The notes under the pieces are model-generated. The model saw only the letters and a program-made list of their open reading frames with translations, was not told where the DNA came from and ran no database searches. From positions 1 through 64,000 of the forward strand of contig JAULBX010008440.1 of the NCBI GenBank assembly GCA_032358255.1: DNA of 64,000 nucleotides, written 5' to 3'. A program made the translations under genes and the position numbers. Shown here one piece after another: positions 8,193 to 60,356 of this stretch. Position 1 is the first letter of the stretch. Every line of letters starts with the position of its first letter. The stretch comes from Heterotrichella gracilis. Taxonomy: Eukaryota; Sar; Xanthophyceae; Tribonematales; Xanthonemataceae.

Positions 8193-8259
8193 AAGCAATG
8201 CTATGCCATAGCCCCAATTGATGTCAGACATCAATTGGGGCTATGGCATAGCATTGCTT
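8193..8259. repeat. Perfect 33-bp inverted repeat with 1-nt spacer
   Basis: The arms 8193-8225 and 8227-8259 are exact reverse complements around a single A at 8226. The arm begins AAGCAATGCTATGCC. It lies about 200 bp beyond the IFT38 stop. There is no target-site duplication and no transposon-like terminus, so it does not look like a MITE. A recent template-switch (snap-back) event or a small-RNA hairpin are both possible. Confidence 0.95.
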
Positions 8260-8460: not shown

Positions 8461-10777
8461 CTAGAACACAGAGTCATTGTCACTGGCTGATGCACCTGCT
8501 TCATCGTCGCTGAATACTTCTTGCGCGGAGGCATCGTTGACGAAAATGTCAGCTTTTGCAGGACCTGGTCTGCTGTATGGCTGTGCCAACAATGGAGACC
8601 CCACAGAGGCAATGTTGCTCTCCTGGGGGTGGCTCGACACACCGTACACAGTCCTGGAGCCAGCAGCAGGGTTGCTGGAGGTATTGTTTGCGGCTCCTGC
8701 CCACCTGCCCTCATCCCACCTGCCTCCCTCCACCTGCAGCATGCACCAAAACAGAGCTGTTACCTCACAGGTACTGTCTCAACGTAGAGTACATGATATC
8801 CTGGAGATGCCTTCATCAAGGGCAGTGCTGTATGTATAGTACCGTACTATAGTACGGTATACTGTACCGTTCTATAGTACGATACAGTGCATGCAACAAA
8901 GAATCCAGGCACCATTTTGCGCTACTGACCTGCGGTGCAAATCCAACGCTGTTCGATGCCCTGATTGCCCCTGGTAGCGCGCCATGGCCCGATGCATGCA
9001 CCAATCCAGGAGGCGATCGGTTCCAATCCTCATCTGACCCTTCCTCCGATGTAGTGTCATCGTCATCGAGGTTGAATGGCTTTGGCTGGGGCAATGTTTC
9101 ATCAGCTGTAACGTCACAGTCGCCGCGCAGGATTCGCAGCTCTTGCTCTTGCAGCCGTTTCTGCAGTTTCTTCAGTTTCCTGTCCAAGCAAGGGCAGGAA
9201 TATGTAAATAAATCTCCTCATTGGCATTCAATTTGATATAAAAGAACAGAGCACGCATGCCCTTGTCATCAGTGACCAGCAGCAGCAATTGATGTATTCT
9301 ATGTGCACCAATGTACAGCTTGTGTATACACATGTATGTGTATACATGTACCACATGGTCTGTATGGGTATCACATGGGTTTCTGTTGTAGCTTAAACCA
9401 TTTTGCAACCTCAATCGCCTGCATCAAACCTTTCAGATGCTGCTGCTTTCTGATTTTCCTCGGTCATATAGGTTGCCAGCTCATGCTCGAGGTACTGTAT
9501 GTTTCTGAACCTGTAGGCATCACAAGCAATATATGACTGCAAAGTGAGTACAGCTGGGCAAACACTTGCGCATAATCAAGGCACAAAAGGCTGCTGCCGC
9601 AACTTACTTCTTGAAGTAGACTGCATGCAGAGCCTGCAGCTGCTCTTGAATCCTTTCAACCTCGTCCACATGCGCAGGTCGCACATTCTGCACAGTTGCA
9701 AGCCTCTTCTTGCTGCGCTCGAGATCGGCGCGCTGTTGATCTACCTTGGCCTGCAGTTCACCCTCCTGCTCTGTTAAATCCTGCAGCTCTTTCTGTAGGG
9801 CCACAGCCTCTGCCCTCCGCTCCTCGATGGCGTCCTGAATGGCGCGCTCCACTTGCGCATCGTCAGTGAAACTGCTCAAAGCCCTGCAATGTTGGGTGGC
9901 CGCTGCATTGGTTTCATAGAACCACCGACTGATGGGCTGAGCCTTGGTGCAAACAGGGGGCAGGGGGCGGCACCATTACCTTGCCCTGTTGACTGCATGT
10001 GCTTCCTCATTCTGCAGGCAGTCCACCAATGAAGATCCAAGTTGGGAAACTTCCGATGTCAGTTGTTGAAAGGCGTTCAGATCGACTGGCTCTATGGCGG
10101 GGTTTGAACCAGCTGCCGAAGCCACCTGGGGTGCAGCACGCAACACGCAAGGCTCATTGCTGCTGGGTGCCGGTGGCCAAAAGGTGGTTGAATTGGGGCA
10201 TGCAAGTGCATATACCTGCTTCAAATGATCTTCATCTGCATCTTGTCTGCACAGCCAGCTGGATAGACGCAACAGCTCCTTCACTGCTGCTCCGTCGGCT
10301 GCATGTACGCGGGTCATGTTCAACTTGAAGTGCGCTTTGTTCCACAGGCCCTCTGCCACTGTGCACAGAAACGCAATCCTTTCGTCTTCTGTGTCTGGGA
10401 TGTCAACGCACACGTAGCCTGGGTCTATCCTGCAAAGGTTTGCAAATAAGCTTGTTTTGGCACAAGAAGGTGGTCAGTGCAGTTTGCATGCCACAACACA
10501 TGCCGTTAGAAAGGCGTGATACGTTCACGGTGCCTGCGGTTCCCGTGACCCTAAGGTTTGCCAAGGCTTACTTTTGAAACAGCCACTGCAGACAGTCCGC
10601 TGCCAAGTGGAAGTTTGGGTAGCGAAAGGCGTCGATGGACACCACCTGTGGGTAGCCCAGGTGGCGCATGGCCTCAGTGAATCCTGCACGAGCAAAAGCA
10701 CTCAGCCACAGGCAGCTTGTTTGTGTGAATCAGGCACAGTAGCTTGTCGACACACCTCTGAGTTCTCTGTACGACAT
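8461..10777 (-). CDS. IFT38: Intraflagellar transport protein IFT38 (CLUAP1)
   Basis: Seven exons, complement(join(8461..8733,8930..9179,9430..9510,9608..9883,9980..10429,10572..10683,10756..10777)), give 487 residues with agreeing phases (animal CLUAP1 is about 413). The start exon encodes only MSYRELR plus one base and continues into GFTEAMRHLGYP, matching the family N-terminus. Other hallmarks are DAFRYPNF, the calponin-homology-like block KAHFKLN / AADGAAVKELLRL, a coiled coil around 200-340 containing KFRNIQYLEHEL, and an acidic C-terminus ending SDNDSVF, like the animal DNDF end. Known role: IFT38 is a peripheral IFT-B subunit needed to build cilia; it acts in the cytoplasm, at the ciliary base and along the axoneme. 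The gene looks complete, so it implies flagella or their recent presence. Its start is 595 bp from the divergent GT61 gene. Confidence 0.93.
8841..8858. repeat. 18-bp palindrome in an IFT38 intron
   Basis: ACCGTACTATAGTACGGT is a perfect palindrome inside the last IFT38 intron (8734-8929). A second, degenerate GTAC-rich copy follows directly. No function is evident. Confidence 0.85.
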
Positions 10778-20500: not shown

Positions 20501-23412
20501 TTCATTACTTCACTTATGCACAAGTGCACAGCCAATGTGGCTTGGGGCTGCAAGCAATGGAGCTAGCTTCATTGCTTGGCTAGGCTAAGCCACGTTGGTG
20601 ATCGACATTATCAATTGTCTAATAACCCATTTGCCTGAATGCACATATTTACATCATTGTGGTACGTATGGGCTTGATTGGGTTATTAGCAAATCTAAAG
20701 ACGCATCATACAAGGTGCGTCTTTAGATTTGCTAATAACGGTTGTCTTTATTTAGTGCATCATGCACGTTTTTCTACGCAACGTTCGCACACCAGGGAAG
20801 CAATGGCTGCGGACAATAATGAAAAATTATGTGCCAGTGAACGTATTTTTGCAATAATCACTGCGTGCGCACTGCGCACCATGTGAATCCTGCACAGCTT
20901 TTTTAATTACCCTCGTGAGTTATAGCTACATGCATATTAAAACACTTTTGTCAATACAAACAGGAAAGGCTACAGCAAGAACTGGACGAGATCCGCAGCC
21001 AGGCTGCGGCTGAGAGAGAGTTGCTGCAACAGGTGAGAGAGCAGCGCAAGCATGAGCGTGAGGCGTTGATAAAGGAATGTGCAGCCCAGCGGCAACAGCT
21101 ACAGACTGAGAGACACGAGCTTTTGAAAGCAATTGAAGATGCCAGGCGGACAGAGGCGGTAGCTCGCAATAGCTCAGCTGAGTATGAGGCACGCTCAGCA
21201 GCTGCTAAAGACAAGGTGATTTGTTAACCCTGCATAGAGACAACCTTGATTGTCATGTATCTATCATTTTGTAAATTGCCATGGTGGTAAATTTCCTAAT
21301 GCATTTTCAGGCCAGGTTGCACGCATTCCTGGCTCCTGTTTGTGTCAATGCTGGCATACAATGCATTGTTATATACCATTGCCAGCGGCACCACTGTTAA
21401 TTTGTTGTTGCAGATGGAGGAGGCTGAAGGCATGGCAGCTGCTGCTCAACACGCTTTGAAACAAGAAAAGTCTAGTATCCGTGATGCTCGCGTGGCAATG
21501 GAGAATCAGAAGAATACCATGGAAGATGATGTACAGCGCTTGACAACCATGGCCGAAAAGGTGAGCCACCATGTCAGGCATACATTCTGTAGTATTTTGT
21601 GGTATACGTGCATTCATCAGAAAAAAAGTTTAAATGATCAAGAAGTCCCTGTCACAATATATATATAAAAACGCAGTGCTAGCTACCTTGTCTCATTTGT
21701 GCTTAATCCCATGAATGCCTGGCATATGATGTTGAATGCCTGGCATATGATGTAATATGTCATATTACATTGAGCAAATGCTGCAAAGTAATGTGCTAAT
21801 GTGCCTGTTGACTAGGTCCATCGCCAATCCCAGCATGTACATGCCGCATATGAAGATGTTGCCCTGAAGCAATCTCTACTCGAGCAGCAGCTTGCAGAAC
21901 TGCGGCAACGCGAGGAAGGAGTACTAGCTAGGGAACGGTCAGTACATTGAGATGTGCATTTTGAAGTTTCTGCCCGTCACAGGCCCAGCAGCTAGAATGC
22001 CTGCTAGTAACAATATTGCGTATGGCTGTAGCAGGGAAGCTACATTAAAATTTTAGTTTTAAATGCTATAAACCAGGAAGTTCCTGATTGGGATGGTTTT
22101 AAAACTCCTTGCTGTAGCAATGACTAGCCTTGTCAATGACTCACAGAAACGTTGGCGAGGCTGCTAGGTGAACCAGAGACTGCTTCAGAGGTTCCATTTG
22201 CAGCTCGTGCAGGGATCAAACAAACCAATGCTTTCAATCTGTGCAGGCGGGTTGTCCAGGATTCGTTGGCAATTGAGGAGGCCAAGGCTGCTGCTGATGC
22301 CGAAAGGCTTCAATGGGTTCTGGAGCGGCAGCAGCTTGTACAGGAGAACACAAGCTTGCATCACGTGGGGCAGCTGCGGCAGATGATGCGCCCAGGGAGC
22401 GCCACCTCCTCACCAAACAACAAGGTGAGCATATCCACTATGGCTGGAACACTGCAAATATTGATGCGCACAAGTTCAAAGCCACAATGTAGCATATGTG
22501 TGCGTTGTATCATCATAATTGCTCATGCAGTTCTTGGACGTGGGTGCAGCACTCAGCAGCACTGACACTTCATGTGGATTTTAAGTGTACACCTCGTACA
22601 CCACTACACCACGTGGGCATCCAATCATCATGCACCAGCTATGCAATGACATTTGTAAGAGTACACCCAAACCTAAGGCTTACGGATACATGATCTCGTA
22701 CCAACATGAATTAAAGCTGTTTGTCGGCGTTCAGCCAGCACAGCGTTGTACACAAAGAGCCTTGATGATAATGGTTGTCTATGCACAGGATATATTTCAA
22801 TTGCCAACGGCAGGCCAGCGTCCAGTTTCAATGCCAGCGTCGCCATTGGTAATGCCTTCTGCTTATGTCCGCGGCATTTATCAAATGGTGACAGCCAGCA
22901 ATTGCTCACCCAATGCCCAGCATTCAGCCAGAAATGAACAGAGCCACCCAGGTGGGGGTGGCTTTCCATTGACCATGGCAATGAGAGCATACCAATGCAG
23001 CCGGGCAAGACACTCGCTGTTCAGGAGCAAGGAGGCGTTTGATGAGCAAGTCTCCATGCCATCAGGTCGTGATGAGAATGTACCCAGCAGCATGGACGCA
23101 GATCAGCAAGGAACTGGGGCGTCCGATTGTGTCGATGGGTGTGAGCCAACAAGCACAAACGATAATGACAGTATGCCACAAGCCTGTTTCACTGCAAGAG
23201 AACAATTGAAGAGCAATGCAGCGCAATGCGACTCACCCCTGCAACCCTGCAAAGTTGTCAACACACTGACAGAGAGAGTAGATCCAGCAGCAATGGGCAC
23301 AAGCCAACCTATATATGGTAGTGACAGCAGAGCAAGTCCTGGGTCACCAATGGCCCACGCTCGAAACCTTTCCAGCACAGCCCTCAAATACTTGGGTTGG
23401 CAAGGCTTCTAG
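17591..23412 (+). CDS. Large coiled-coil protein, possibly FBF1-like
   Basis: Ten exons, join(17591..18367,18741..19007,19453..19536,19666..19925,20204..20387,20964..21215,21414..21560,21816..21937,22247..22424,22789..23412), give 964 residues with agreeing phases. The 5' end is uncertain: an acceptor at 17712 suggests the true first exon may lie upstream and that the N-terminal 40 residues here are not coding. Residues to about 259 are disordered and contain YVPSFAANARAGRRRRLG. From about 265 to 750 the protein is almost continuous coiled coil with Glu/Gln/Ala heptads (EWEAKLKEHEEAL, ERDRLAKEHNRLYQLQ). The C-terminus is disordered and ends LKYLGWQGF. The layout resembles FBF1, a transition-fibre protein at the ciliary base, and IFT38 lies nearby, but coiled coils mislead easily. 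A structural coiled-coil protein is certain; FBF1 is only a suggestion. Confidence 0.7.
19152..19380 (-). mobile_element. Short LINE/SINE-type retroposon copy with 16-bp target duplication
   Basis: GCGAGACCCTTGGTAA occurs at 19152-19167 and again at 19365-19380, flanking about 197 bp. Next to the left copy are four or five GTAA units, which on the minus strand read as a 3' tail of CTTA units. Just inside is a small hairpin (ACACTC/GAGTGT), as seen near the 3' ends of many non-LTR retrotransposons. A long target duplication plus a short tandem tail fits target-primed reverse transcription, so this is probably a 5'-truncated LINE or a SINE. It sits in the second intron of the coiled-coil gene, in antisense. 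The exact duplication suggests a recent insertion. Confidence 0.6.
20682..20739. repeat. Perfect 24-bp inverted repeat in an intron
   Basis: The arms 20682-20705 and 20716-20739 are exact reverse complements with a 10-nt loop (TCATACAAGG). It lies in the coiled-coil gene's intron between 20387 and 20964, so it is transcribed and would fold into a stable RNA hairpin. Confidence 0.95.
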
Positions 23413-34729: not shown

Positions 34730-37612
34730 TCACACGCCCCCCGCTGCCTCATCCAAGAGCACGGTGCGCACCCACACCAGCTGTCGCCTGCCGCTGCTGT
34801 CAAGGGCTGCCTGCAGCGTTGCCGCCTGGCCCACGTCCGCCACCACATTGCGCTCACTGCTCCTCAGAATCTCAATGCCCGCACACAGCGCCACCGCATC
34901 CACCTTACCACCTGCAGGAATACAGGTGCAGAGGGATGAACGCATGTATACTGTGGCATACCAGTCTGGTATGGATACCATCATGATCCACGCAAGGCGC
35001 ACGCGCTGGCAATGCAGCCCAGCCTAGGAACAACTAGGCCCAGCATGCGCCAGGATAACGCCGTGCAGCGTGCATACGGCTATTGGCTTGCTAACTGCTG
35101 CACGCCAGGGCTCAGCAAGCACCCCCATTGCACACAAGCAACAGACATTGACTCATTCTGCCCACCTGCCAGCGCCGCCGCGTCCCCATCTATCTCAATC
35201 CCTGGGACCGGGGTGTCTGCTACCAGCTTGTACAGCGCAGGGAGCTGGCGCAGCGTCAGCACCGTCCGGATGGTGATGCCTGTACACAGCAAGCCAATTT
35301 CTGTGCGTATGTTTGGTGATCCTGATAAGAAATCGGTATATGCATATCATTATACATAACTCGTGCAAAAATCTTATTTGAAAAATAAGATTTTTGCACA
35401 TGCGTGATGTGGGGAACTTGCAACAACTGTGACAGGACAAATTTGCGATACCATTGGCCAGTGGCCAACTTGAGACATTCCACCACGTGCCAAGCCTGCA
35501 CCAAAGTGTCACCATGGCACCAATGCCACCATCGGCACCTAGGCCACACACACCTGTGTTGGAGATGACGGGGCAGGAGGACACCTGGCCGAAGAACAGC
35601 GCGCGCACGCTGACCTGCTCCTGCTCCACGCCGTACTCCCCTGCCAGCCGCCTGATCTTCGCCATCATGGCCAGCAGGGTCACCGAGGGCTGGAACTTGT
35701 CCAGGCCACACACTATGTACTTGCGCTGGAGGCACGCGGTGCTGCTCCGGCTGCTATATGTGCCTGAGGCTGAGGCTGGATGCTGGGAGGTCGCAGGTTC
35801 AATCTCTGACATCTGCTGGCAGGCAGCCATGGGAGGGGCATCGCCAGCTGAGGTGCCGCTTGTTTCAGGGCTGGCGCTTGGAGATTCGGCGGCATACTGT
35901 GACACCTCGAGTAGCACGCACGCGTCCGACCACCACACCGACTGGGCATCGGAGTAGAGCCGCTCGCCAAACCAGGACCCAGTGCCGCGCCCTGACTCAC
36001 TGCATCAACAAGAGGCAGGAGGGTATCAGCCAGACTGGCGCTGCGAGCTTGCGCAGGGGAGGTGTGTGGCGTAAACAGGCGGCAGGCGAAGCAACGTTCT
36101 TCCTGTGAAACTGTGCTCGTAGCAAGAGATGCATTCTTAAAAGAAACAAACAGGCGTCCGGCAGCATACGCAGCTTTCGTCCCTAGTCTAGGGTTTGTGG
36201 CACTCACATAAGCTGACTGGGGTTGGCACCATCTGCCACACTGAAACAGTGTGGAACAAGCCTTGAGCTCGTGGGCTGGTGTGAGGCATAAGCAGAAATG
36301 CTAACCTTTCAAAGTTATAGTGCATCTACTTACACTAGCTGCTGCAGCTGAGGCTCTACCGGCACCTTGACCTCCACCAGGCGGGGTCCCCCAAGGGCAA
36401 CCACGCTGCTGGAGCGGCTGCTGAGGTCCCGGGTGGGGGTGCGAGGGGGGGTGCTCTGGGAGGGGGTGCCTGGCCGCTGGGGGGTGGCGGACCCTGCAGG
36501 TGTCCCTGGCAGGCTGCTGGCCACCGCATGGAGGCCGCGAGCGGTGTGGTCTGCGCAAAAAGGTTGTGGAGGCATTAAATTGGGTGCATGTTGATTGGGT
36601 GCGACCCCTGTTGACCCCTGCCCACGAGGTTGTGGATGCTGTGGATTCAAAAGGGTGCACGCCGGTTGCGGCCCCCGATGGGCGGGACCCCTGTTGGATC
36701 ACATGGGCTAGCCACTCTTTTCAAGACCACAAAGAGCATGTTGCCAGGTTTACCTGCCAGGATCTGATAGAGCTCCTGTGTGTTTTCCTTCAGGTGCCAG
36801 GGGGTATCCCGCCACCCGTTGTCAAAGAGGTCCAGCAGGTGTGGGGGGTAGGGCTGCGTGGAGACAGGCAGGCAGTCACTGGCGGCCTGCAGCGCAGCAG
36901 GGAATTGGGCGCTCAGGTAAGGGCACCGCACAGGCAAATGCAGTAGCGTGCCAGGAGGCTACAGTGCTGTGTCGCCAGTTCAGCATGGCAGCAAGGTGGA
37001 AGCAGGCTTGAGCAGCAGCCAAGCTCAGAGAAGGTTAGCCCTTCCAACTGCAACTAGTGCTGGTAATACAAGAGCCTCTGACATTCCTGTCAGCAGTACT
37101 GGACTAGCAAGAGCTCTCGATGTACGTACATCATCTATAGAGTCCCTGGGGGATGTAGATGCGCTCTGATCTTGGGCAGTCAACAAAGTTGAAAAATATT
37201 TCTTGACCCTATGGAAAGCAGCCACTCGGTCGAAGGACGTGCCATACACCATCGTGATGTTGAAACCTGCAGATGTGGCCAAAACGGGTTACAGGACCAC
37301 CAATATAGGGCCAAAGAGCTCTACAATGTAAAAAAAATCGAGATAAGGGCAGAATAGCAAGTCTTTCAGAGACGTGTAACCATAGGGTTGACCTCCAGCA
37401 ACTACGCCAATCAACAGCATGCCCCCACTCAACTCAGTGCCCACTACTCTGCGGTTAAGTACATAGTTGCAGGCCCAGCTGGGCACTGCAACAAAATTTA
37501 GGTTTACAATCCAAGAACATGTTGAACAGGCGACCACATAAATTTTAAGCTGTTCTGCCAGGGCCCTGATGCGACATGGTGTAGTGCATGTATCGCCGCC
37601 CTGAGTGGCCAT
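34730..37612 (-). CDS. Conserved-looking protein of unknown function
   Basis: Eight exons, complement(join(34730..34911,35166..35279,35554..35999,36208..36240,36334..36550,36754..36958,37130..37266,37393..37612)), give 517 residues. All junctions are GT-AG and in phase; the first exon and its donor (GTCAAC) are the weakest. Nothing here matches a family I know. Globular parts include MVYGTSFDRVAAFHRVKKYF, LLDLFDNGWRDTPWHLKEN, GSWFGERLYSDAQSVWWSD, and a C-terminal third with LDKFQPSVTLLAMMAKIRRL and VDAVALCAGIEILRSSERN that looks like alternating beta strands and helices. A Pro/Thr/Ser-rich disordered segment (about 190-250) separates the halves. There is no signal peptide or membrane span. 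It is probably soluble; no function can be assigned. Confidence 0.6.
35363..35399. repeat. Perfect 17-bp inverted repeat in an intron
   Basis: Arms 35363-35379 and 35383-35399 (GTGCAAAAATCTTATTT and its complement) around a 3-nt loop, inside the intron between exons 35554 and 35279 of the unknown gene. Confidence 0.95.
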
Positions 37613-47465: not shown

Positions 47466-50400
47466 ATGAGCAGGTTGGGACTGCCCGTTTGGGCCGTACT
47501 CTTCCTTGCAGCAGTAGCACTTCCTGGAGGTCTTGCACAAGAGTGCGGCGCGTCCTTGGTGTCAGATGGCCCAGGTGGGTTCCCCTTTTTGTCTGTACAA
47601 CTCACAGGTTGCTGGTCGGGCCCGGTCGTTTGAACCGCGAAGTCGGTCGGGTGATGTGGGCAACTGCCCAGGCGCGCTGTTTAAGCCTGTCCCTGTAGCC
47701 TGAAGCGTCTCGGAACTTCGTTTTCGGGTGTATCGCAAGGGGTTGTGGTTGTGCGTTGGGCGGCTGTGCAGGGAGAGTGGTTTCTTTTCCCAGAGGCATG
47801 ACTTGTCCCAACTGCGAACCGCACAACAGCCCATGTCTGTTTTTGAGCCCTTTTGGCTGTCAAGTCGGGTTGGTCGGACTAAGTCTCTTGCCCTCTGGCA
47901 TGCTGTCGGACAGTGAGCCTTGAGTCCTGCCCGTTTACCAGTTTGGCCATGAGTAATATGTAATATGGGCGATGGCTGCTTTTGGGAGTTGCCCGGTAGC
48001 TTTCAGCCAAATGGTGGTGGCGGCGTAAAAAGGTTTTTTCTTTGGACTCAGCGGTTGTCTAGACTGTGCACAATCGTTGTTTATCTACTGTCTGCCCTTG
48101 AGGACTGTTGTTGTGGGCTGTCCGGTGTTTGGGTTTGTTGTTGCTGTGCTGTTGACCTGTGAACATTAGTAATAGCGTTTGGGTGTAACTTGAGACCATG
48201 ACTGGTGGAGCCTCTTTTATGTTCGAAAGTAGCTCTTGGTGTCTTCCATCAGTATGTTTGGCTTCGGTGAGCCGCTGTCCCTCTTGGGTTGCAGCATCGT
48301 GGTCTTCATGTATTTGTGCATAGTTTGCATGCGAGGGGTAAGGTGTCTGGCATGGTATCCAGCTGCAATGTGTCAGTATGCTCCCGCCCACAACCTGCAA
48401 ACACTTCAGACTGTCCTTCAAGTCGTGAAATTTTGTTTGAGGCTTTGTATTTCGACGTATTTCCAATGTCCATTTACACAAATAGGAACTGTAGTCAAGG
48501 CCACCTTGCTGTGTCTGTTCACTTACGCCGACCTTCGCCCTGCTTGACGCGTCCACCTGTGCTGCAGAGTGCGAGGCCCTTGTGGATGCGCTGACGCCTG
48601 AGTATGGTTTCTATTACCTTGGCGAAGCTGCAGCTTACACAGGGCTGACTGCGGTGGTGAACAACGCTGACCTGGTGGGCACACTGCTGGCTCCTACCGA
48701 CGATGCCTTCGAGTCCCTGCTTGCAACTCTCGGCCTCCAAAATATCACAGACATCCCAAAGGACGTGCTGTGCGATATCTTGTCGTACCACCTTATCCCC
48801 GGCCAGGTACGCACCAAAAAGGGCAACCCAATCTGCACCGCATCTGCCCATGTCGCCGCCAGACTGTCTGGATGCCCAGTCTTTCATATTTGCCAGGCTG
48901 TGCATCCCTTGCCTTGCCTATGTTTATAAAGTCAATCCTCGCTGCAATCCATACTACCTGTTCTTCCACATTTTTCTTTGTACTGACTCTTCCTCGCTCT
49001 TGTCCCAGAGTATCACATATGATGAGATCCCCGATGAGGGTGGCATGACCAGTGCAAGTGCCCTTGGCGCCGGCTACAGCCTTACCTTTGACCATAGTGC
49101 CATGGGTGTGGCAGTCAATGGCGATCTGCCAGGCTGCCTGCTCAACTGCGATGCCACTGCCGTGGAGGAGCTGGCGCTGTGCAATATCACTGCACAAGTC
49201 ATCGAGACGGTACGCTTTATAGAGGATGCCGACTTGAATCTGCCAAATGAGTGATAATGCTGTGGAAGAGGGCATGTGGCCATTTGCAGACCTAGGCATG
49301 GCTGGTCAGTGGTGTTTGGGCCTATGTCAAGCTTGCAGCAGTTAATCGGGGTTTTGAGTGTTTGATGCCCATCTTTGCAGGTGCTCATCCCCGACACTGA
49401 AGCCGTGAGGAGCTGGAAGGCTGTGGAGGATTTCCTGCCCACGATCATGACATCACCTCCCCCTATGGTGATGGCACCTCCCATGGAGATGTTACCCCCA
49501 ATGGCAATGTCGTCACCCCCTATGGCGATGTCACCTCCCATGGCAATGTCGTCGCCCCCTATGGCAATGTCACCCCCTGCCACACCGCCACCCATGGACA
49601 TGATGCCCCCAGCATCACCAGAATCTCCACCCATGCAAAGTACCCCACCACCACGCCGTCGCCGCCGCCGCAGCCCACCACCTTCCAGGCCCCCTCGCCG
49701 CCTCCGGTCGTCTCCCCCACCAGCAACCCCACCACCAGGTGAGCTTTCCCGCCTGGGTTGACATGCACGCATGTACCTCCTAGTGTGCTGCTGTTGACAT
49801 GTAAAGCATTACAGCATGGCGCAACATGTGACAAACCTGAGGATTGAAATGGGCATAGCTACAATCACCCAACCTTGGTAAATAAGACCTACCATTTTTG
49901 AATATAATGGAATACAGCATCACCCGGCACTTCAATCCTCTGTGATTGTTGCTACTCTCCCTCAAATGGGATGAAATGGGCACTCTGTGTGTCAAAGCAG
50001 CCGCCATGTCCACTGTAGAGCAGCATCATGCTGGCGCCCGTGGTGGGTTATAATTTAAGACATTCGACAGAAACTTGTCTGCTGGCTTGGGTGCTTTGTG
50101 TGTTAGCTGACCGTCGGTACTTTTAGTCCTGAGCAAGTTTGACAAAGCGCTTTCTCAAGTTCATAGAAGAGTAGCTTTTGCGCCAAGAGCACCAACTCTT
50201 TCCTCCATTGGTGTTTACTCATTTTTTTACTGCAATTCGAGGTGTTACAGCCCAGGCTATTTGAGATTACCTACAGTTTGCTGTTTTCCCGCCCCTTCCT
50301 GCTGCCCCTCTTCCGTTTTCCCCCCTCCCCTCCCCTTTCCTTTGCCCCCCAGCTGTTTTTGCAGTGTGCCCACCCTGAATGGCACCGTGTTTACCCTGCA

Positions 50401-53400
50401 GGGTTTTGATGCCACTTTGATGGCAGCATTACGCATTTACACAACAGCCCACCCCCTCCCCTCCCCTAGCAATGACAAAGATCAGAGCCCATAAATGCCC
50501 GTCCTACACAGCAGCTGCCACTCCCTCAAATGCCAAGTATGGGTTCTATGATCTAGCGCCGTGCGTGGGCAGCATCAGGCTGGCCGTGTAACCTCTGGCC
50601 CCTGCAGCGGTACACCTACACACAGATGCCACCCGATGTATGCGCTGGTGGTGTTCAACAGTGCACATGGAGTGCAGTCAGTGGGTTGCTTTACACACTG
50701 GGCAGTCAGCTGCGCACTATATTGAAAGATGTGCTTTGTGCTCTTTTGCCCGCATAACTGTTTTGCTGATCGTATTTCCCCAGTATTTCTTGTTGGGCGT
50801 GTACTGCAGACTTGACTTGTGCCATTCATTATTTGACCTGACAGATCATGCTGACTGGTCCATGTTCAGCGAATTAAAGGCCTTTTCCTGTAGATTACTG
50901 CCTGCAATGCATGTGTTGCGGCCTGCCTGACTCGATGGCGTTAGCATCTTCTTCCAGCCCTGCACAGTGTCTGTTTGTTGTCAGTGCTGCATCATGACAG
51001 CTTTGCTCTGCCCAGGCTGCCTGGTACTACATTCTTTAGCCCGTGGAACATTCTCCACATTTATGATCATTTCTTACAGTTTGAACTGGATGCCAGGCTC
51101 TGTGGCATTGCCAACGCATTTTGTGGCAATGTGGGGAGTCCTTGCAAGCACTCATATGTGAGTGCTTTAAGATTTTAACCTAAAACACACACTGAGAAAA
51201 GGGGGAATAAACAAATTGTATGCATTGAATGTATACGGTGGGGTGGCTTGATAACCGCTTTCGGTTGCCTCTCGCCCAGCCTCACTTGACAACACGATGC
51301 CCTGCACCTGGTGACAGTCAATGACTGGTGGACTGCAGATGACTATGCTTATAAAATCAGCAGTCTGTCAGTTGACCGTTGAAAATATCATACTTATATT
51401 TTACAGTGTAGGTACCTAAAGATGTGGTAATAACTTATAGGTAACGTATTCAGCCTGAGGTTGGCCTGATCCAACCAACTAAGCCCTTGTGGCGGCGTTT
51501 TATTTAACAAAAAAATAAAACGCCGCCACCCATGGGTATTGACAACAGCCATGTAGACTGAGTTGGCCTCGAGCCTGTTGTAACAAATTGCATTACTCCA
51601 GCCTGAGTCGGTGTTTGTCAACATACAGGTCACCTTCACATGCTGGCAAAGCTTGCACCATTGTGGCCCATCTGTCCAGCAATACAGCCATGTCAGCAGT
51701 CATGCCTGAACGCTATGTACCATATTGTACTGCATTACTAACATATCCTGCCATGCACCATGATATACTACACATAGATGACAAGCTTGCAAGCTCATCA
51801 TTGCGTGTTGCCTTACAGTGGCCGCTCCAGCACCTGCACCCGCTGCGGCACCCGAGGTGTTGCTGCTGCCCCCTGCTCTTCCACCTAAGAGGAAGCGGTC
51901 TCCTCCACCCTCACCTGCACCCGAATCAGCACCCCCAACTGTGCCACCACCATCCTCGCCTCCGCCATCCAAGAGGACTTCTCCCCCTCCTGCTGGTCAT
52001 TACCTGCCCTTTCAACCATTGCTATAAACCTGTCACATGGCATAACAAACCTATCCTTTCCCGCTTGCAAATTCTAGGGGACAGCTGCACTTTCTGGATG
52101 TTTTACAGCATTATATTTGGATAAGGTTTTTCCACCTGCTGAATAGGTTTAGATAGATTTAATGTTGCTGCATTTTGGGTATTTGAAGACCATCCACATA
52201 CGCCATACTGCCCAAACGTTGGGGCCTACTCAAGACTCGGCAGGTTAACTCTGCCCTTTTTACTGCCTCCCTCCCTTCCAACGCAGTGGCTTCCTGCGTA
52301 CACTGTGAACCATGTTGCTTGCACTAGTTGGCGCGGCACCTGTCATGTTGTGCTCTTTCATCCCTTGTTGCATAATGCTACTGGCAGTAATGTAGTACTC
52401 AACTAGTTCCCCCCCTGCAGTGCCCGACACCAATGTGTCCATCAGCTCAGCCACACCCTGGGAGCCAGCCACAGCAGGAGGGTGGCGCCAGGGCAGGGCA
52501 ACGTTCTACGACGCACCACAGTATTACCAGGATGTGAGTGCACCAGGAGGAACAGGGAGGAATTTATATCCACATTGACAACCACCAGGGCAGTGAAAGC
52601 CCTGGTTAGCACGTACTTGCAACTCTGCATGCCATCTGTCTTTGCCAGGTGACACTGGTATGGGTGTGGGGCATTTGACACGGGTGCTTTCCCATTGCAA
52701 TGATCAGCGTTGGCTTGCTTGCAATCCTCTTTAAATAAACCCTTTCATTGCTGTGTTCATACTAGAAGCATGCTCATTTCTCTGCCATGATCTTCAGGCC
52801 ATCAAGCGCGGCGACGGCGCCTTTGGCACCATCAACTACGGCAGCTGCCAGTACTACAGCACGGGTACCTATGAGGGCCAGGTGTTCCCCAAGGAGGCTG
52901 TGGCTGCTCTGGCTGATGCAGCCCCCGACTACCCAGGTAAGGAAGGGAAGCATGTGGGCATGGGGAGGAATTGAAGTCAGGCAGAGAAACTGGTAGATAT
53001 GCAGCATGTGGTTGGGTCAAGCTTGGGATTAAGGTGGCAGATTCCAGCACTCTCCCCATCCGCATGCCAACCTTGTACATGCACTGCTGCAATCTTGCAT
53101 TCAGCAGTGCCCTTGAAGTTGCAACACACCGACCCACGCCCATAGCCCCACAGTGCGGGCACATAGACTGAGTCCTATGTGGCAGGATCCACAGCAATTA
53201 AAAGCTCACCATGCACTTGCTAGACACTGGTCAACTCCATGCTATCTCCCACAGGCAGCTGCGGGCGGTGCTACGAGGTGCGGTGCAAGCCCGGTCTGCT
53301 GCTGGCCAAGAACAACACCGCTGTGCCCCTGGACTCCCTGTTGGACATGGCAAAGATTGCACCAAAGACCAAGGACACATACGGCAGGTGGGTGGGGCGG

Positions 53401-55150
53401 TTGGGGTGCCACGGGCAAAGCCAGGCAGGGTATGCAGTGGGGATGTGACCATGAAGGGCATTTTGCATTGATGGTTTAACAGCATCAATTTTTGAGGTTG
53501 CCATGTATATAGTGGTGCAGGCTTTTTTTTTTTTTTTTTGGTACTATTCATTTGGGGTGGGCTCATCCAGCATGCCTGCCATGCATCCTCCCTCCATTAC
53601 CAACCCTTTGGGACGGCACTGACAATCCCCATCCCTACAGGTCCTACCCAGGAAACCCCACTGCTGCCGAGAACGAGTCCACAGTGAAATGCTGGGACAA
53701 GAGCGTGGTGGTGCACATCACCGATACATGCCCCTGCACTACCAACACACAGTGGTGCTGTGGCGACCAGTACCACTTTGACCTGTCCTTCTGGGCATTT
53801 GAGCAGCTTGCCCACCCACTGTATGGCGTGCAAATGGTGGAATTCGTAAGTGGCCTGATGACCCTGTCCACTCTCTACCGTAGGCTTCCTCAATTAGACA
53901 CACCACACTCTGCAATGCATTTCCATCTACAACCAATCATTTTGCTGCCTGCCTGTGCCAATTTGGTACCCAAACATCCGGTGTGAACAACTGCAATTAC
54001 AACTGCTGAATGTTGGTCATCCTGACCTCATGTCATCACTTACAAGCCAGCATCCCTATCAGATACAGTGTATTGGTATCAATTGATATGCGGCGTTGCA
54101 AATGACCACTTTGTGGAGTGGAGCTGAATCTGCCTTGTCTTCTGCAGCGCCCTGTGGATTGCGCATCAGAGAAGCCTCTTGACTTCTTGCCCGGCTTTGT
54201 CTCTGAGACCATCTACAAAAATGGTGTGGAGACTGGCTGGCAGTGGAACTGGTACAACCAGTACAAGGCTGTGTGGGCCCAGGATGGTGCAGGGCCAGAC
54301 GGCAGCGCAGCCATGTGTATGGGTCTGTCTGGGAGCCCAGCAGGTGGGCTCAACTTCATTTGCCGGGAGTGCTTCAAGGAGGGCTACCAGCCATTTGCAA
54401 AGGCCAAAACTGTCAAGTTCTGGATCCAATCCACGAGAGGTACGCTGGATAGACAATGTGCTTGCAGGCTGATTGCAGACTTTGAGCACTGATCAGTGGA
54501 CAACGGAAACCAGTGTAATTTTTCTTTAAAATACATGGTTGAAGAGTGTATCTTGCTCAAGGCACAGTGTCTCCTTTGAGCGCTTTTTGCTTGGGTATTT
54601 CCAACCCACACTTATTTCCTCTTGCAGGAGCAGACAGCGCAGGCGTCCCCAACCTGCAAATCGGCCTTTCCCAGCAGGAGGGTCAGAAGTACTGCTCGTT
54701 TTTCCCTCTCGATAAGTTCTCTCCTGTAGCTACCAAGCCTGGCGGCTGGAAGCAGTATGCCATCCCTCTGTCTGAGTTCGGGTACGTTACAAATCAAATT
54801 GGAAGGGACTGATTGTAACAGTACTGTGGTTGCTGGATGTGTGTTTATATACGTTGCAGACTGCATTGAGTTGCCATGTTGCAGAATATGTTGTGGGTTC
54901 TTATCATCTTGTATCTTATTTTCAAAGATCCTAACACTTGCCAACAATGTGTGGAATAACGCAAAGTAGTGTGCGTGAATAATTACACACGATTTGGATG
55001 GGATCATTGCACAACCAGACTCTTTCCTTGCTGTGCACTTGCAGGTGCGAGGGTATTGGTGGGTTGAAGGAGGTGGACTCACTCAACTTCCCCAACAGCC
55101 CTGGTGGGGACACGCAGTTCTGCCTTGACGATTTGCAGCTGGCTGCATGA
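47466..55150 (+). CDS. Secreted FAS1 / Pro-rich / expansin-like (DPBB) fusion protein
   Basis: Twelve exons, join(47466..47574,48568..48806,49009..49209,49381..49738,51819..51995,52421..52533,52798..52936,53255..53387,53641..53845,54148..54439,54628..54781,55045..55150), give 741 residues with every phase consistent, including across the 2.1-kb fourth intron. A signal peptide (WAVLFLAAVALPGGLAQ) leads into a fasciclin domain (about 38-205; LLAPTDDAFESLL, ILSYHLIPGQ), then a Pro/Met and Arg-rich linker (about 210-360). A double-psi beta-barrel resembling expansins and GH45 follows (about 380-555), with CGRCYEVRC, HITDTCPC (Asp518) and HFDLSFWAFEQLA (Asp536). The C-terminal 180 residues form a Cys-containing domain, perhaps carbohydrate-binding. 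FAS1 domains mediate adhesion and expansins loosen walls, so an extracellular-matrix role is likely. The gene could instead be two genes split in intron four, but both sides encode matching linker sequence. Confidence 0.8.
49451..49581 (+). repeat. Tandem SPPMAM coding repeats
   Basis: Within the fourth exon of the FAS1 fusion gene, a unit encoding SPPMAM or close variants is repeated about eight times (MAPPMEM, LPPMAM, SPPMAM). A run of six Arg codons and RS/PP-rich sequence follow shortly after. The Met-rich units are unlike the usual SPPPP linkers of algal wall proteins. Confidence 0.85.
51489..51529. repeat. Perfect 17-bp inverted repeat in an intron
   Basis: Arms 51489-51505 and 51513-51529 (GTGGCGGCGTTTTATTT and its complement), 7-nt A-rich loop, in the long fourth intron of the FAS1 fusion gene. 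Its arm ends in TTATTT, like the hairpin at 35363-35399. Confidence 0.95.
53523..53539 (+). repeat. T17 tract in an intron
   Basis: Seventeen consecutive T residues in the intron between 53387 and 53641. It may act as part of the polypyrimidine tract or mark a short retroposon tail; no duplication of flanks is seen. Confidence 0.9.
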
Positions 55151-56190
55151 GCTACTGCAGGGGATACTTGAAAGGCCACCACAAGGAGCGCATAGCCCCT
55201 TAGTGTGAGGCAGATACATCATGAGCCCCAAGATGTTGTTCGAGTGTTGAACAATGCAGTAGTGAGCACTGCATTAGCTTTCAAGGTTACGCAAGTGCAT
55301 CAGTGATGCAATACATACTATCCTTCCAGAGGAGTCTGCAGATTATCTCACCTGTTTGTTGGCACCCATGGCATTAAAGAATGGACCCTTCCACTGGCTG
55401 TACTGGACCAGGTCCTAATTGATTGATTCTTCCATTCATGATTTATCACACACATTTTCCAATGTACCGAATGAACCATCGGCCTGTGGTGTATTCTTGC
55501 CAACTGCCGCCTGTTGCAGCATGCTGCAATGCATGCTTAATATGTGATTTAGAGTTGTAACAAAATCTGATGTTACTTGTAGCCTTCAATTGTGCTGCCA
55601 GCGGTTTGTGTAAATGCATGCATTTATTGCTGCAAGCATAGTCATGTTAGTCATGTCATTGATGGCCCGCCCGTACCCTTAGGTTTTACCTTTGAAGGCG
55701 ACCTGCCATTTCATATCACCTCGAGAGGAGACTGGGGTGGACATGCATGATCTGACAAACGAAAATTAACCCCCTTACATTGCACCCTCCCACTCCCTTT
55801 CGCATATCAGTAGCCTCCTTCCCCTGAGGCCGACAAAATACCATGGCATGGGAGGTTGTAAGCCACTGGCCAGGAATATGTATCGTCTTGCCCGGGTTGC
55901 TAGTGTCAATCTCGTTGGACACAGCTCAAGAGATCCAGCGTTCCTTCGCAAATTGAAGTGGAAAGATCTTGCCGGCCCGGGGTAAGTCTGTAGCATGCGC
56001 ACACACGTACAATGTGACGTATTGCAGCCGCTGCGTATGACTTCGGCAAACTAAGTCACTGACTGGCAGCCAGAAGTCATATTGTCTGCTGAAGTTCACT
56101 GAAGGACTCGAATTCCTAATCAAGTAACGCAATGCCTGCGGGATAATGTTTACCAACACAAACGATGGAATAATCAGTAGCCCATTTAAG

Positions 56191-56218
56191 TGCCACATGT
56201 AAAATTTTACATGTGGCA
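56191..56218. repeat. 28-bp perfect palindrome
   Basis: TGCCACATGTAAAA followed directly by its reverse complement, with no loop. It lies about 100 bp upstream of the duplicated terminal exon. Confidence 0.95.
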
Positions 56219-56315
56219 GGGGAAGGAAGTTGAATTGTACTGACAGAGTGCACCGCCACAACCCCATATGAATTGAACAATAGATACATTTAGTTCCATG
56301 CTGTGTTTGGTTCAG

Positions 56316-56418
56316 GTGTGATGGCATTGGTGGCCTGAAGCAGGTAGATTCCCTCAACTTTCCAAACAACTCAGGGCAGGATCAGGAGTTCTGCCTGGAC
56401 GACGTGAAGCTGTTGTGA
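56316..56418 (+). CDS. Second copy of the last exon of the FAS1 fusion gene
   Basis: After a good acceptor (TTGGTTCAG), this 103-base segment encodes CDGIGGLKQVDSLNFPN and on to FCLDDVKLL, then a stop. The regular last exon (55045-55150) encodes CEGIGGLKEVDSLNFPN and FCLDDLQLAA. Both have the same acceptor phase (one base completing the GG of the preceding exon), similar length and their own stop. The copy is therefore usable as an alternative 3' terminal exon giving a different C-terminus. The region 55151-56315 between them shows no other coding match. It could also be the relic of a larger tandem duplication. Confidence 0.75.
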
Positions 56419-57505
56419 ATGCTGCAGCGCAGTGCGCACCAGAACCTGATCCAGCCACGTATGCCACAGTGAGGCTATGTGGCCATGGGGCTGCACCACA
56501 TTTTGCCAGTTGATGTTTTCTACCCAACAACCAATTGCACTGCCAGTCGCTGTCATGGCGCTGTCATTGAATGACTTACAAGCACGCAAAAGATGTCAAT
56601 CATTGGTGAATGATGTCAGTAAGCAACAGTTCGCCATGGTTTGATAAACCATTTTGAAGTGACGCTTTGTTTGCCATTCTGCAATATGGCGTGCGCATAT
56701 GTTTCCCAAGCGACTCTCAGACTCTGGATGCACCCAGCCCACCTAGGCAGTGGCAGTGTAAATATGGACGAACATGCTGTTTTGGGCGTGTATCTTCACA
56801 GCTGTCAGCTGTGGCTAGCCCGGTGGGTCACACACATCAGCACTGTGGCCTGGACACGGTCTCAGCCTGTTGTAATCTGCACCAGCCATATACACTGTAG
56901 TGTGCATGGGCTGCAGGGACCATATTACAGGACTGGCGTTCACATTTTCCAACTGAACATGTTACCATAACGCATCATGGTCGATGGAATGACAACAGAG
57001 CTGCCAATCGGACATCAAATGCGCTTGCCATGGAGGGTGCATGAAGCTGCCAGAATGAGCATACCTCTTTTGTGCAACTAGAAATCGTCATCGTCCCGCT
57101 CGAGGCTGGCCCTCGATGATCCCCCTGATGAAAACCCTTCGCAAGGGTTTGATTGCCATGGTCACTGATTCAGTGACCAGAACCTAGGCGGCCTGGAGAG
57201 TCGGTACACGCCTGGATCGGTTTGGATGGAAATTACATATTACCTTCCGAAGTGAGAAGTCTCTCAGACCCAATGATATAGGGTAGCAAGCTGCTGTACA
57301 TAGTTGTGTTTGCACGTTCAAAAGAGCGTGCGTTGTATCGTGCTGGCGCCATATTGCCTTGTGTTTCGCGCACAGTACCGTAACGGACCTCGCGCATCTC
57401 CACGCTCCACGCACCCACCATAGCAAACCCACAAGCGTAGACTTGTGCTGAATCTTTCCGTCTTCTCCTTGTGGCGTGTGCATTTATTAGTTGTAGACCA
57501 AGACC
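56419..57505. other. Intergenic region with two small hairpins
   Basis: No gene is seen between the duplicated exon and the FN3 gene. Two adjacent hairpins occur: AAACCCTT/AAGGGTTT at 57132-57150 (loop CGC) and TGGTCACTGA/TCAGTGACCA at 57159-57179 (loop T). They lie about 325 bp upstream of the FN3 gene start. Confidence 0.6.
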
Positions 57506-60356
57506 ATGGCTCCAACGAGCCAAACGACACTTCGCGCCAACTGCTTGAACGTCGCAGCACTGGTCCTTGCCTTCCTGCACGCCAGTAAACTTGTAAATGG
57601 TACGCTCCGATCATCTTGGAGCGGTTTTCGAGAACTATTTGTTGATATCATTGATGTCCCCCGGTTCGGCAGGCATGCATGTGGCTAGCCTTGTGACCAC
57701 AATATGGCGGCTAGTACGACGGCTTCAGGAATCAAACAAGTGCAGAAAGATATTGCATGTTTGCAAATAATTACTTGCTACTGTCGCATTCCCTTACAGC
57801 TGTCTCAGGGTTCCACGTTTTGTTGGTGCCGTGCAGCTGAACCATTCCTAGCCCCAGCCCCAGCCCCAGGACCAGGTATTTGGCCCAGAGCTCCTTGGCC
57901 ACCAGTACTTATAAGTAACGCACCTGGTGACAAGTCTGCACTGATAGTTTGGGACCCACCTTATCCGAGTGACGGGGGTTCGCCGGTATTAACCTACAGG
58001 TAAAGCATCCAAGCAACACATATAACATTAATGTTGCCAGTGCCAAACGGTGACCTATTGCACGTGAAATGCCTTGTGCTCTGAGCCTGCTGTGATGCAG
58101 AGGGATTCTAGCACCATGTAGGTTCAAATTATTGGCACTAAGTACACATCATTCCGCTTCGCAGGATTGAAATTTGTCCAGACTTTATGACATTCCCAGA
58201 TGGCTGCCGTCAGTATTATGGGCCCTGGGCACCACCAGGTAGAATGCTGATGCAGTACACCTTGCCCAGTAAGTGGTGCCCTATAAACCTGCCCAGTACA
58301 AATCAACTTATTTCTGTGCTTGAACGTGCAGGTGTCCAGAATAAGCGCGTTGTCGATGGCCTTTTGAGTGCTCATATATACACAGTCACTGTCTACTGTA
58401 GCAACGCTTTTGGAGAGTCGGACTCCCTCAACGACATGAATGGCCTGGCTTACGGCAAGTTCACAGTATTACCTGCACAGCCACCGGCACCCACCACTCC
58501 TGCAGCACCCACCACTCCTACCACCACTCCTACAGGTAAGTGATCAATAGTCTGACAGTGTCAGGATAGTCTGCCAGCAGTCGCGCTAGCTCCACACTGA
58601 CTGACTGAGAGTGCTGCCTCCAGACTAGCGCAATTGTATCGCAGTAATATGGTTTGACCCAAAGCTTGTGTGTAATCCTCAGCAACAGACTCAACATGTC
58701 TTTTCACCATGCAGACTGCGCAGCTATTGGCAGTATGTGCTCAGACCCACATGTTGCCGGGTTTGATGGCAGGCACTTTGACTTCCACGGTCTGCCTGGG
58801 AAGGTATTCAACATCATCAGTGAGGGTCGCTACCAGGTGCGCACCTGCCAACTGCGTCAGATGTTGCTAATCACAAAGACGTCTTCAATGCCTGTATAAT
58901 TTGCATTTGTGATCCATTCCATGTGCACAATTTGGTATTGCTTGAAAATCGGCCTGTTCTGCCTAGCTTCAAGCAATACAGTGTACATTTGATTACCTCA
59001 GGAGTCCTTTGGTTTAACTTGTCTGCAGGTGAACGCTCTGCTGAGCAACCTGGGCAATTCTGAGGTGATCAACAATTATATGACACTTATTGGCATTCAT
59101 CATGGTGGCGCCAGTGTTGCAGTAGAGGCAGCAGGCAAGGATGACGAGATCAAAGGTGCGTGCGTTTACCTACTGGTATCATTTAAACTCTTCTAGTGCA
59201 GTGGTAGCAACATCCATGTATGTGAGTGATTGATGTAGTCCGACAGTGTCCCAAGCGCAGCACACACCATGCATCTTGCCTGATGGCCGTTCTGCACGCT
59301 TGATTGGTGTCATGCGCTATGCCATGGATGCATGCGCACTGTATATGTGATTGGCTAGTGCACTTTAAGTGTGAAAATTGGCTAACATACTGCGCATGCT
59401 GTTACTGACATGTCCAGACGTGTCGGCGTTGAAAGGCATGCCATGCTATCAACACCAATGGATATTTTGCCATAAAACAAATTGTGCATCTGTTATAGCT
59501 CTTTTTTCTAACAACTACAAAATCTACACTCACTTGTACATGCCATGCAGTGTACGTCAACCACGTGGATGTGACCTCGACCCTTGTGGCTGGTCAGCTG
59601 TATACTGTAAAGGGGAGCAATCTCACAATCACAATGGAGACTGCTCCCGCCCAGTCCTCCCCTGGTGCCACAGTCCAGGTGCCTGCACGTGTGGTGGTGG
59701 CTGGATCTCACATCAAGTTCACCATCAGTGGCGAGAAGCAGTGGCTCAACATTGCAACTGACATTGTCGACAAGTAAGCGCAACTGCATCAACAAATGCA
59801 TGGGCATTTCACTGTACACCATTCCCCGCTTTTTTACGCCATCACTTATGCCATATGTCTCCTTCAGCATTGGCCTTACCTCTCCAAATCTTACCCTGTG
59901 GAATTGTAATTGTGTTCAACTTATGGGTGAATGAGATATTCCTGCTACATTGTCACTGACACTGTACTGTTTTGAATCCCTACTGAACTCTGTTTTATTC
60001 TGCTCAGGTCTGTGACTGACATGCATGGCATTGTGGGACAAACCTGGCGCAACAGCGCCCCCTACACGCTGCCGGTGGTGAACAACACGGTGGTGTGGGA
60101 GGGAGAGACCCAGGACTACCTTGTGAAGGATGGCCTGTTTGGCCATGACTTCTTCTTCAACCAGTATGCTGACTTTTCCAAAGACAGATCAGCATCACCC
60201 GACATGACAACCATGGGTGGCATGGCAGGGGCTAGGAAGCTCAGGTCTGGCAGAAGGCTGCAGGCGCGTGGCCTGGCAATGAACGCTGTGGTATCCTCAG
60301 ATGCCGACATCGAACCTGAATCCATTGCCCATGCAATGATCCATGCCAGCCTGTGA
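57506..60356 (+). CDS. Secreted FN3 / Thr-Pro linker / root-cap (VWD-like) protein
   Basis: Eight exons, join(57506..57599,57837..57999,58165..58238,58332..58535,58715..58836,59029..59155,59551..59773,60008..60356), give 451 residues in one frame. A signal peptide (VAALVLAFLHASKLV) precedes an Ala/Pro stretch and a fibronectin type III domain (about 48-150; ALIVWDPPYPSDGGSPVLTYR, YTVTVYCSNAFGES). A TTPAAPTTPTTT linker follows, then a VWD/root-cap-type domain (about 171-385) with MCSDPHVAGFDGRHFDFHG and DMHGIVGQTWR. The C-terminal tail is basic then disordered. Such proteins are extracellular; a matrix or cell-surface role is inferred. It follows the FAS1 fusion gene in the same orientation. 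I know of no assigned function. Confidence 0.8.

Follow-up and report, generated by a model that had tools for sequence, protein, structure and literature searches.

A duplicated last exon, with both copies apparently maintained, in an expansin-like gene of a probable green alga

Described terminal exon pairs and the e1/e2 locus

Homologous alternative 3'-terminal exons have been described in the gene for human capping protein beta (CAPZB; PMC3228551), and clusters of terminal exons in Drosophila pip (PMC9013439); of the 101 terminal exons, 5' and 3' together, that bear the annotation mutually exclusive on the Drosophila X chromosome, 14 share the features described in that account (PMC9013439). 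Mutually exclusive internal exons, according to the same source, arise by tandem exon duplication (PMC9013439). Volvox cyn23 carries mutually exclusive exons (PMC4378016), an example cited here for its exclusivity and not for duplication; the commonest form of alternative splicing reported for Volvox is intron retention, at 46.5% of events (PMC4378016). Here, a pair of homologous last exons is described in a gene for an expansin-like protein with a FAS1 (fasciclin) domain, located in a 64,000-nucleotide (nt) stretch of contig JAULBX010008440.1 (positions 1 to 64,000 of the forward strand, hereafter the window) from the assembly of a probable green alga. The proximal copy, e1 (55045-55150, + strand), and the distal copy, e2 (56316-56418, + strand), are read, with a probability of roughly 0.6, as alternative last exons of one gene that would swap the end of its C-terminal domain. 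If this is true, the locus provides a duplicated last exon, predicted from sequence and backed by selection, from a probable green alga; the protein, probably a wall protein, is affected where its C-terminal domain ends. The approach taken, in which a paralogue is combined with a bound on the neutral part of a branch, also allows the case for a living exon copy to be made from DNA sequence alone.

The likeness to homologous alternative 3'-terminal exons lies in the adjacent homologous last exons, in the same phase and with their own stops; as in the CAPZB kind, to the extent that its account describes it, the copies are of similar length, share a frame and code for a structural part of the protein end. 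Pending RNA, the e1/e2 pair would belong to this known kind, although its setting, an expansin-like protein of a probable green alga, is unlike that of CAPZB and pip. Mutually exclusive internal exons, as far as they are characterized in the cited account, share with the pair the tandem duplicated exon, the kept phase and the expectation of one copy per mRNA, but the e1/e2 cluster is terminal and no pairing was found between its introns; because the cluster is terminal, the choice may run by 3'-end processing. Strict mutually exclusive exons were rejected as a description, given that there are no coding exons on both sides and that both copies carry a stop, although a further exon without coding sequence may exist. 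A limited literature search, mostly of titles and the beginnings of abstracts, yielded no description of the e1/e2 gene, and the stretches that matched its pattern in viral contigs (43) and in prokaryote genomes (21) included no confirmed relative.

The duplication, first proposed in a sequence-only reading of the window, was recovered. Positions 55042-55141 and 56313-56412 align over 100 nt without a gap at 75% identity, 1,271 nt apart from start to start. Self-BLAST over 70 kb of contig sequence extends this pair (E = 1.4e-14) to 55024-55141 and 56294-56412 and ranks it as the strongest local direct repeat; a single further local pair, which is GGA-rich, passes the same filter. A tblastn search with the e1 peptide matched e2 at E 3.8e-15, and the likeness of the two copies is not due to chance. 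As a last coding exon, e1 contributes 106 coding nt and ends with TGA at 55148-55150, and e2 contributes 103 coding nt and ends with TGA at 56416-56418. The common donor belongs to the penultimate exon (54628-54781, + strand; GT at 54782-54783, phase 2), so that the intron before e1 (54782-55044, + strand) measures 263 nt and the one that e2 would need (54782-56315, + strand) 1,534 nt. When the GG of the donor exon is joined to the e1 acceptor, the peptide GCEGIGGLKEVDSLNFPNSPGGDTQFCLDDLQLAA results, followed by the stop, and joining to the e2 acceptor gives GCDGIGGLKQVDSLNFPNNSGQDQEFCLDDVKLL, likewise followed by the stop; the stretches EVDSLNFPNSPGGDTQFCLDDLQLAA (e1) and QVDSLNFPNNSGQDQEFCLDDVK (e2) would tell the copies apart. 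In agreement with the earlier description, both copies share a phase (phase 2), each has its own stop (TGA) and neither has an internal stop; no indel separates them. Amino acid identity is about 71%, and the protein differences had rightly been called mostly conservative, 6 of the 9 replacements having a BLOSUM62 score above 0. The similarity runs through the coding part and reaches about 20 nt into the intron tail before it (TTCC.TGCTGTG), where TTCCTTGCTGTG (55024-55035, + strand) and its counterpart before e2, TTCCATGCTGTG (56294-56305, + strand), are identical at 11 of 12 positions; the likeness of the tails is supported over the last 40 nt (shuffle P 0.01). No similarity was detectable 3' of the stop codons over 60 nt (P 0.65) or 300 nt (P 0.15), and the penultimate intron shows a marginal likeness to 55244-55342 (P 0.04, 100 shuffles).

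Selection on the two copies

An outgroup was provided by a paralogue on contig C181, the one other gene with the domain that turned up when all 903 contigs of the assembly (68.5 Mb) were searched at the protein level. Its exons are 56-59% identical to those of the window gene, and there is no third such gene among the scored matches, the next of which had an E of 4 and two stops. The last exon of the paralogue, CGSIGGLGQVDVLAFPNDSGRNQDFCLTDVQLA followed by the stop, shares 65.6% of its amino acids with e2 and 57.6% with e1. Since e1 and e2 are closer to each other than either is to C181, and the paralogue has no full second copy in the 5 kb after its stop, the exon was probably duplicated after the two genes had split.

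Synonymous and non-synonymous differences between the copies, a comparison suggested by the sequence-only reading, point to constraint at the protein level: over 32 aligned codons, 10 are identical, 13 differ synonymously and 9 are replaced, the differences at codon positions 1/2/3 number 8/3/14, and the rates of non-synonymous (dN) and synonymous (dS) change are 0.16 and 1.75, respectively (method of Nei and Gojobori, NG86). Random placement of the same 25 differences produced so few amino acid changes without a stop in at most 1 in 10,000 cases (20,000 trials). Polarised by C181, 14 of the changes fall on e1 (6/2/6 over the three codon positions) and 7 on e2 (1/1/5), with 4 sites unresolved. 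When a codon model assigned the two copies equal neutral time, a single omega (the dN/dS ratio) of 0.125 was obtained. Under this model, forcing e2 to be neutral raised twice the log-likelihood (lnL) difference to between 21.6 and 23.0, and 0 of 188 parametric simulations of a neutral e2 reached 22.98 (maximum, 9.6); forcing e1 to be neutral gave a likelihood ratio statistic of 10.2, for which the P of 0.0014 comes from the chi-square distribution only. Separate omegas (e1, 0.19; e2, 0.03 to 0.04) were not significantly better (P 0.16). Codon usage is coding-like in both copies: none of 296 overlapping non-coding open windows scored as high as e2 (0.46) or e1 (0.47). The assumption of equal time is held to be fair, because one duplication implies one age and a distance of 1.3 kb probably implies one mutation rate. 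Given equal neutral time, purifying selection on both copies, with frame, phase and stop kept, is supported, and e2 is not a decaying relic.

The introns of the C181 paralogue offer partial copies for comparison. They contain five copies of neighbouring exon edges, with donor or acceptor, that are 67-93% identical to their sources and 114-198 nt away from them (locus L010, 6289-6565, 6660-6879, 7409-7622, 7625-7928 and 8078-8314); four of the five have gaps, and all lie within about 2 kb. Six C181 exon fragments were compared, a seventh, the 13-nt copy of an acceptor, being omitted as too short. The expectation that a dead copy loses its frame was borne out in part, with indels in 4 of the 6 fragments and in-frame stops in one. 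In the last exon of C181, the acceptor and the first 13 nt are doubled (L010, about 8815-8830 and 8925-8942, about 113 nt apart); the upstream copy of this acceptor has a high score, 14.5, in the acceptor model described below, which was trained with the downstream one, and the exon does not continue there.

Protein ends, splice sites and 3' ends

Chlorophyte expansins combine a DPBB domain with CBM63, according to their description in PMC11547041. The product of the window gene resembles them in having a DPBB domain in a probably secreted protein and differs in the absence of a CBM63 match, in a different C-terminal domain and in the FAS1 domain upstream. Two FAS1 exons lie at 48568-49209 on the + strand (48568-48806 and 49009-49209 by eye; Pfam Fasciclin, 38.5 bits against a cut-off of 22), and three exons at 53255-54439 on the + strand (53255-53387, 53641-53845 and 54148-54439 by eye) encode DPBB and the start of the C-terminal domain. 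DPBB_1 (PF03330) covers residues 137-195 of the downstream part, mainly from exon 53641-53845, at 41.4 bits (cut-off, 28.8), and the EXPB1_D1 match, at 18.6 bits, is below its cut-off of 27. Pfam gave no CBM63 or C-terminal expansin domain in the 379-residue protein (E up to 1) or in the C-terminal domain by itself (E up to 10), and no convincing Pfam family for the latter. From their order, strand and open frames, we infer that the FAS1 exons are the 5' part of the same gene; with a signal-peptide-like start at 47466 (judged by eye), the protein would consist of FAS1, a proline-rich part, DPBB and the C-terminal domain and would probably be secreted.

A single-sequence search against solved structures found no match at E up to 1, and a profile of the C-terminal domain found three at E up to 10, one of them below 0.01. 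The latter is a weak match to residues 54-179 of 5z06 chain A (BDI_3064), with an E of 0.0039 for the whole sequence and 0.041 for the stretch, in which the last exon falls at the end of the aligned domain (FCLDDV.L against YTIYLDDIEL). The C-terminal domain is presumably a beta-sandwich, with its last two strands supplied by e1 or e2. The donor at 54781 would be joined mostly to e1, with its strong acceptor and short intron, and sometimes to e2, and the proteins from the two mRNAs would diverge over the final ~33 residues, which likely form the last strands of the beta-sandwich, so that the protein ends might perhaps differ in binding or stability. Competition between the acceptors could decide which end is used, whether or not a further poly(A) site follows e1, and the e1 mRNA could hold the e2 region within its 3' untranslated region.

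Acceptors were scored with a model trained on 16 acceptors from the two genes, e1 being scored leave-one-out. The scores are 8.47 for e1 and 4.02 for e2, within a range of 2.03-11.51 for real acceptors; of the proper acceptor that had been claimed for both copies, e2 thus has the CAG but a weak context. Because of this weak acceptor and the 1,534-nt intron, compared with 263 nt for e1, we expect the default form to use e1, with e2 as a minor or conditional form. A junction of donor 54781 with e2 is likely. The usual poly(A) signal of green algae is TGTAA, which occurs at 55556, 55609, 55857 and 56198 between the copies and at 56757 and 56871 after e2. These six in 2.5 kb compare with a mean of 1.8 across the window, where 20 of 615 overlapping intervals contain as many; this density, which is suggestive only, mildly supports 3' ends after both copies, the sites themselves being predicted. 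No Rfam match was found in 50000-58500 (E up to 0.1).

Rival accounts of e2 and the genome around it

A number of observations weigh against alternative last exons. The selection data amount to 32 codons in three sequences with one paralogue as the outgroup, and third positions are near saturation. Once the shared clock is dropped, one omega (lnL, -285.38) has no advantage over a neutral e2 with a branch length of 0.075 (lnL, -285.21), so the rejection of neutrality depends on e1 and e2 being equally old and having one neutral rate, and branch-specific omegas are not identifiable without the shared clock; gene conversion would break the equal-time assumption. The proposal of selection on both copies therefore stands under equal neutral time, where neutrality of e1 and of e2 is rejected, and not beyond it. 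Synonymous and replacement differences number 16:26 in the C181 fragments and 12:8 between e1 and e2 (gapped alignment; Fisher P 0.09), and the two sets are not distinguished by their excess at third positions (P 0.32); given these values, the case for selection rests instead on the codon model, the simulations and the random placement of differences. At the splice sites, 9.7% of 2,003 AGs score at least as high as the e2 acceptor and 2 of the 16 real acceptors score lower, and several other AGs between the copies outscore it. The intron tails of e1 and e2 are not alike over the last 150 nt (shuffle P 0.32), and the predicted pairing between the two alternative introns (-28.9 kcal/mol) is within the range of 12 shuffles (-25.5 to -32.8). 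Within 5 kb past its stop, C181 has no full second copy of the last exon, only a 10-residue fragment. Local direct repeats are common, with 47 BLAST pairs in 100 kb of sampled algal contigs. Finally, the proposed junctions are predicted from the sequence, whereas those of CAPZB and pip, as presented in the cited accounts, are backed by annotated transcripts or reads.

Among the rivals, the one that survives best, although it is rather unlikely, has e2 as the last exon of a former tandem copy of the gene, complete and selected for most of its existence, and orphaned, whether still in use or not, when a recent deletion took everything upstream. Such an origin accounts for the constraint on e2 without any RNA, and the weak e2 acceptor is consistent with early decay. 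When a neutral tail was added to the e2 branch, the best-fitting neutral time was zero, although up to about 12% of the branch is tolerated (1.92 lnL units, interpolated). The deletion would have to be recent and have both ends in non-coding DNA. Between e1 and e2, tblastn (E up to 1) did not find the FAS1, DPBB or C-terminal exons, proline-rich exons not being part of the search, and local alignment did not find the penultimate exon (P 0.83); a clean deletion would leave no such trace, and no third gene body is present among the scored assembly matches. Upstream of e2, the donor at 54781 is the sole homologous partner that is seen in place. This is the main reason for preferring alternative last exons over an orphan, the best-fitting orphan time of zero being the other.

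It is improbable, at longer odds than the orphan, that e2 is a functionless local partial copy, one of many in the genome, left intact by luck. The abundance of local repeats, the five exon-edge copies in about 2 kb of the C181 paralogue, the P of 0.09 for the contrast with the C181 fragments and the fit of a neutral e2 on a short branch without a shared clock are all compatible with this account; against it, neutrality is rejected under equal neutral time by simulation as well as by random placement, e2 is a complete exon including the stop and is free of the indels and in-frame stops of the C181 fragments, and only one other local pair passes the same filter in 70 kb of the contig. That e2 serves some other transcript as its last exon, joined for example to the open stretch 55836-55982, is hardly probable at all, for although this stretch holds a GTAAGT donor in phase 2 and in frame with e2, it was rejected as an exon on its non-coding-like codon score of -0.44 (33% of 144 overlapping non-coding open windows are as good), and neither a homologue in the assembly nor a Pfam match at E up to 1 was found for it.

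The genome setting of the preferred reading, alternative last exons, was sampled in 20 stretches of 10 kb, ten on contigs C1 and C111 and ten on C24, C112, C320, C597 and C181. The former have a GC content of 0.35-0.39 and no CpG deficit, because of which C1 and C111 are probably bacterial contigs within the algal assembly; the latter resemble the window in composition. In the window and the sampled algal contigs, CpG is at about half of its expected frequency and TpG/CpA is raised about 1.4-1.6 fold, as expected of a methylated genome. The presence of two algae in one assembly was considered and rejected, given the same dinucleotide signature in the window and the sampled algal contigs and one L21e gene; S8e was found in two places in the assembly. 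The 47 repeat pairs of the ten algal stretches, each within 3 kb, compare with 6 in the other ten, and some are long coding repeats. Counts of short-range pairs (<450 nt) are 25 for the ten algal stretches, 5 for the 14 kb surrounding the paralogue and 0 for the 70 kb of the window contig, and across 12 loci the density of these pairs tracks that of the CCCTAA motif (Spearman 0.69, P 0.013, post hoc). Exon-edge copying as a general phenomenon was rejected: the conserved donor word GTRAG occurs in 4 of 30 repeat pairs versus 2.6 expected, which is no excess, and such copying was seen in the C181 gene only.

A broader scenario, itself distinctly unlikely though less so than a functionless copy, would have the genome continually copy exon edges into introns and flanks, with e2 as a whole-exon copy captured long ago and turned into a working last exon under regulation, so that a wall protein could face carbohydrates with either of two ends.

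Several features of the sequence were noted in passing. A perfect 28-nt palindrome (56191-56218) is located about 100 nt before the e2 acceptor, and its core, the central 24 nt, is absent elsewhere in the assembly at up to 3 mismatches. Other perfect inverted repeats in the window are at 8193-8259, 20682-20739, 35363-35399 and 51489-51529, with arms of 33, 24, 17 and 17 nt, respectively. On the algal contigs, the loci L038, L039, L042, L045 and L046 contain many short local direct repeats, which become denser as the telomere-like CCCTAA/TTAGGG motif does.

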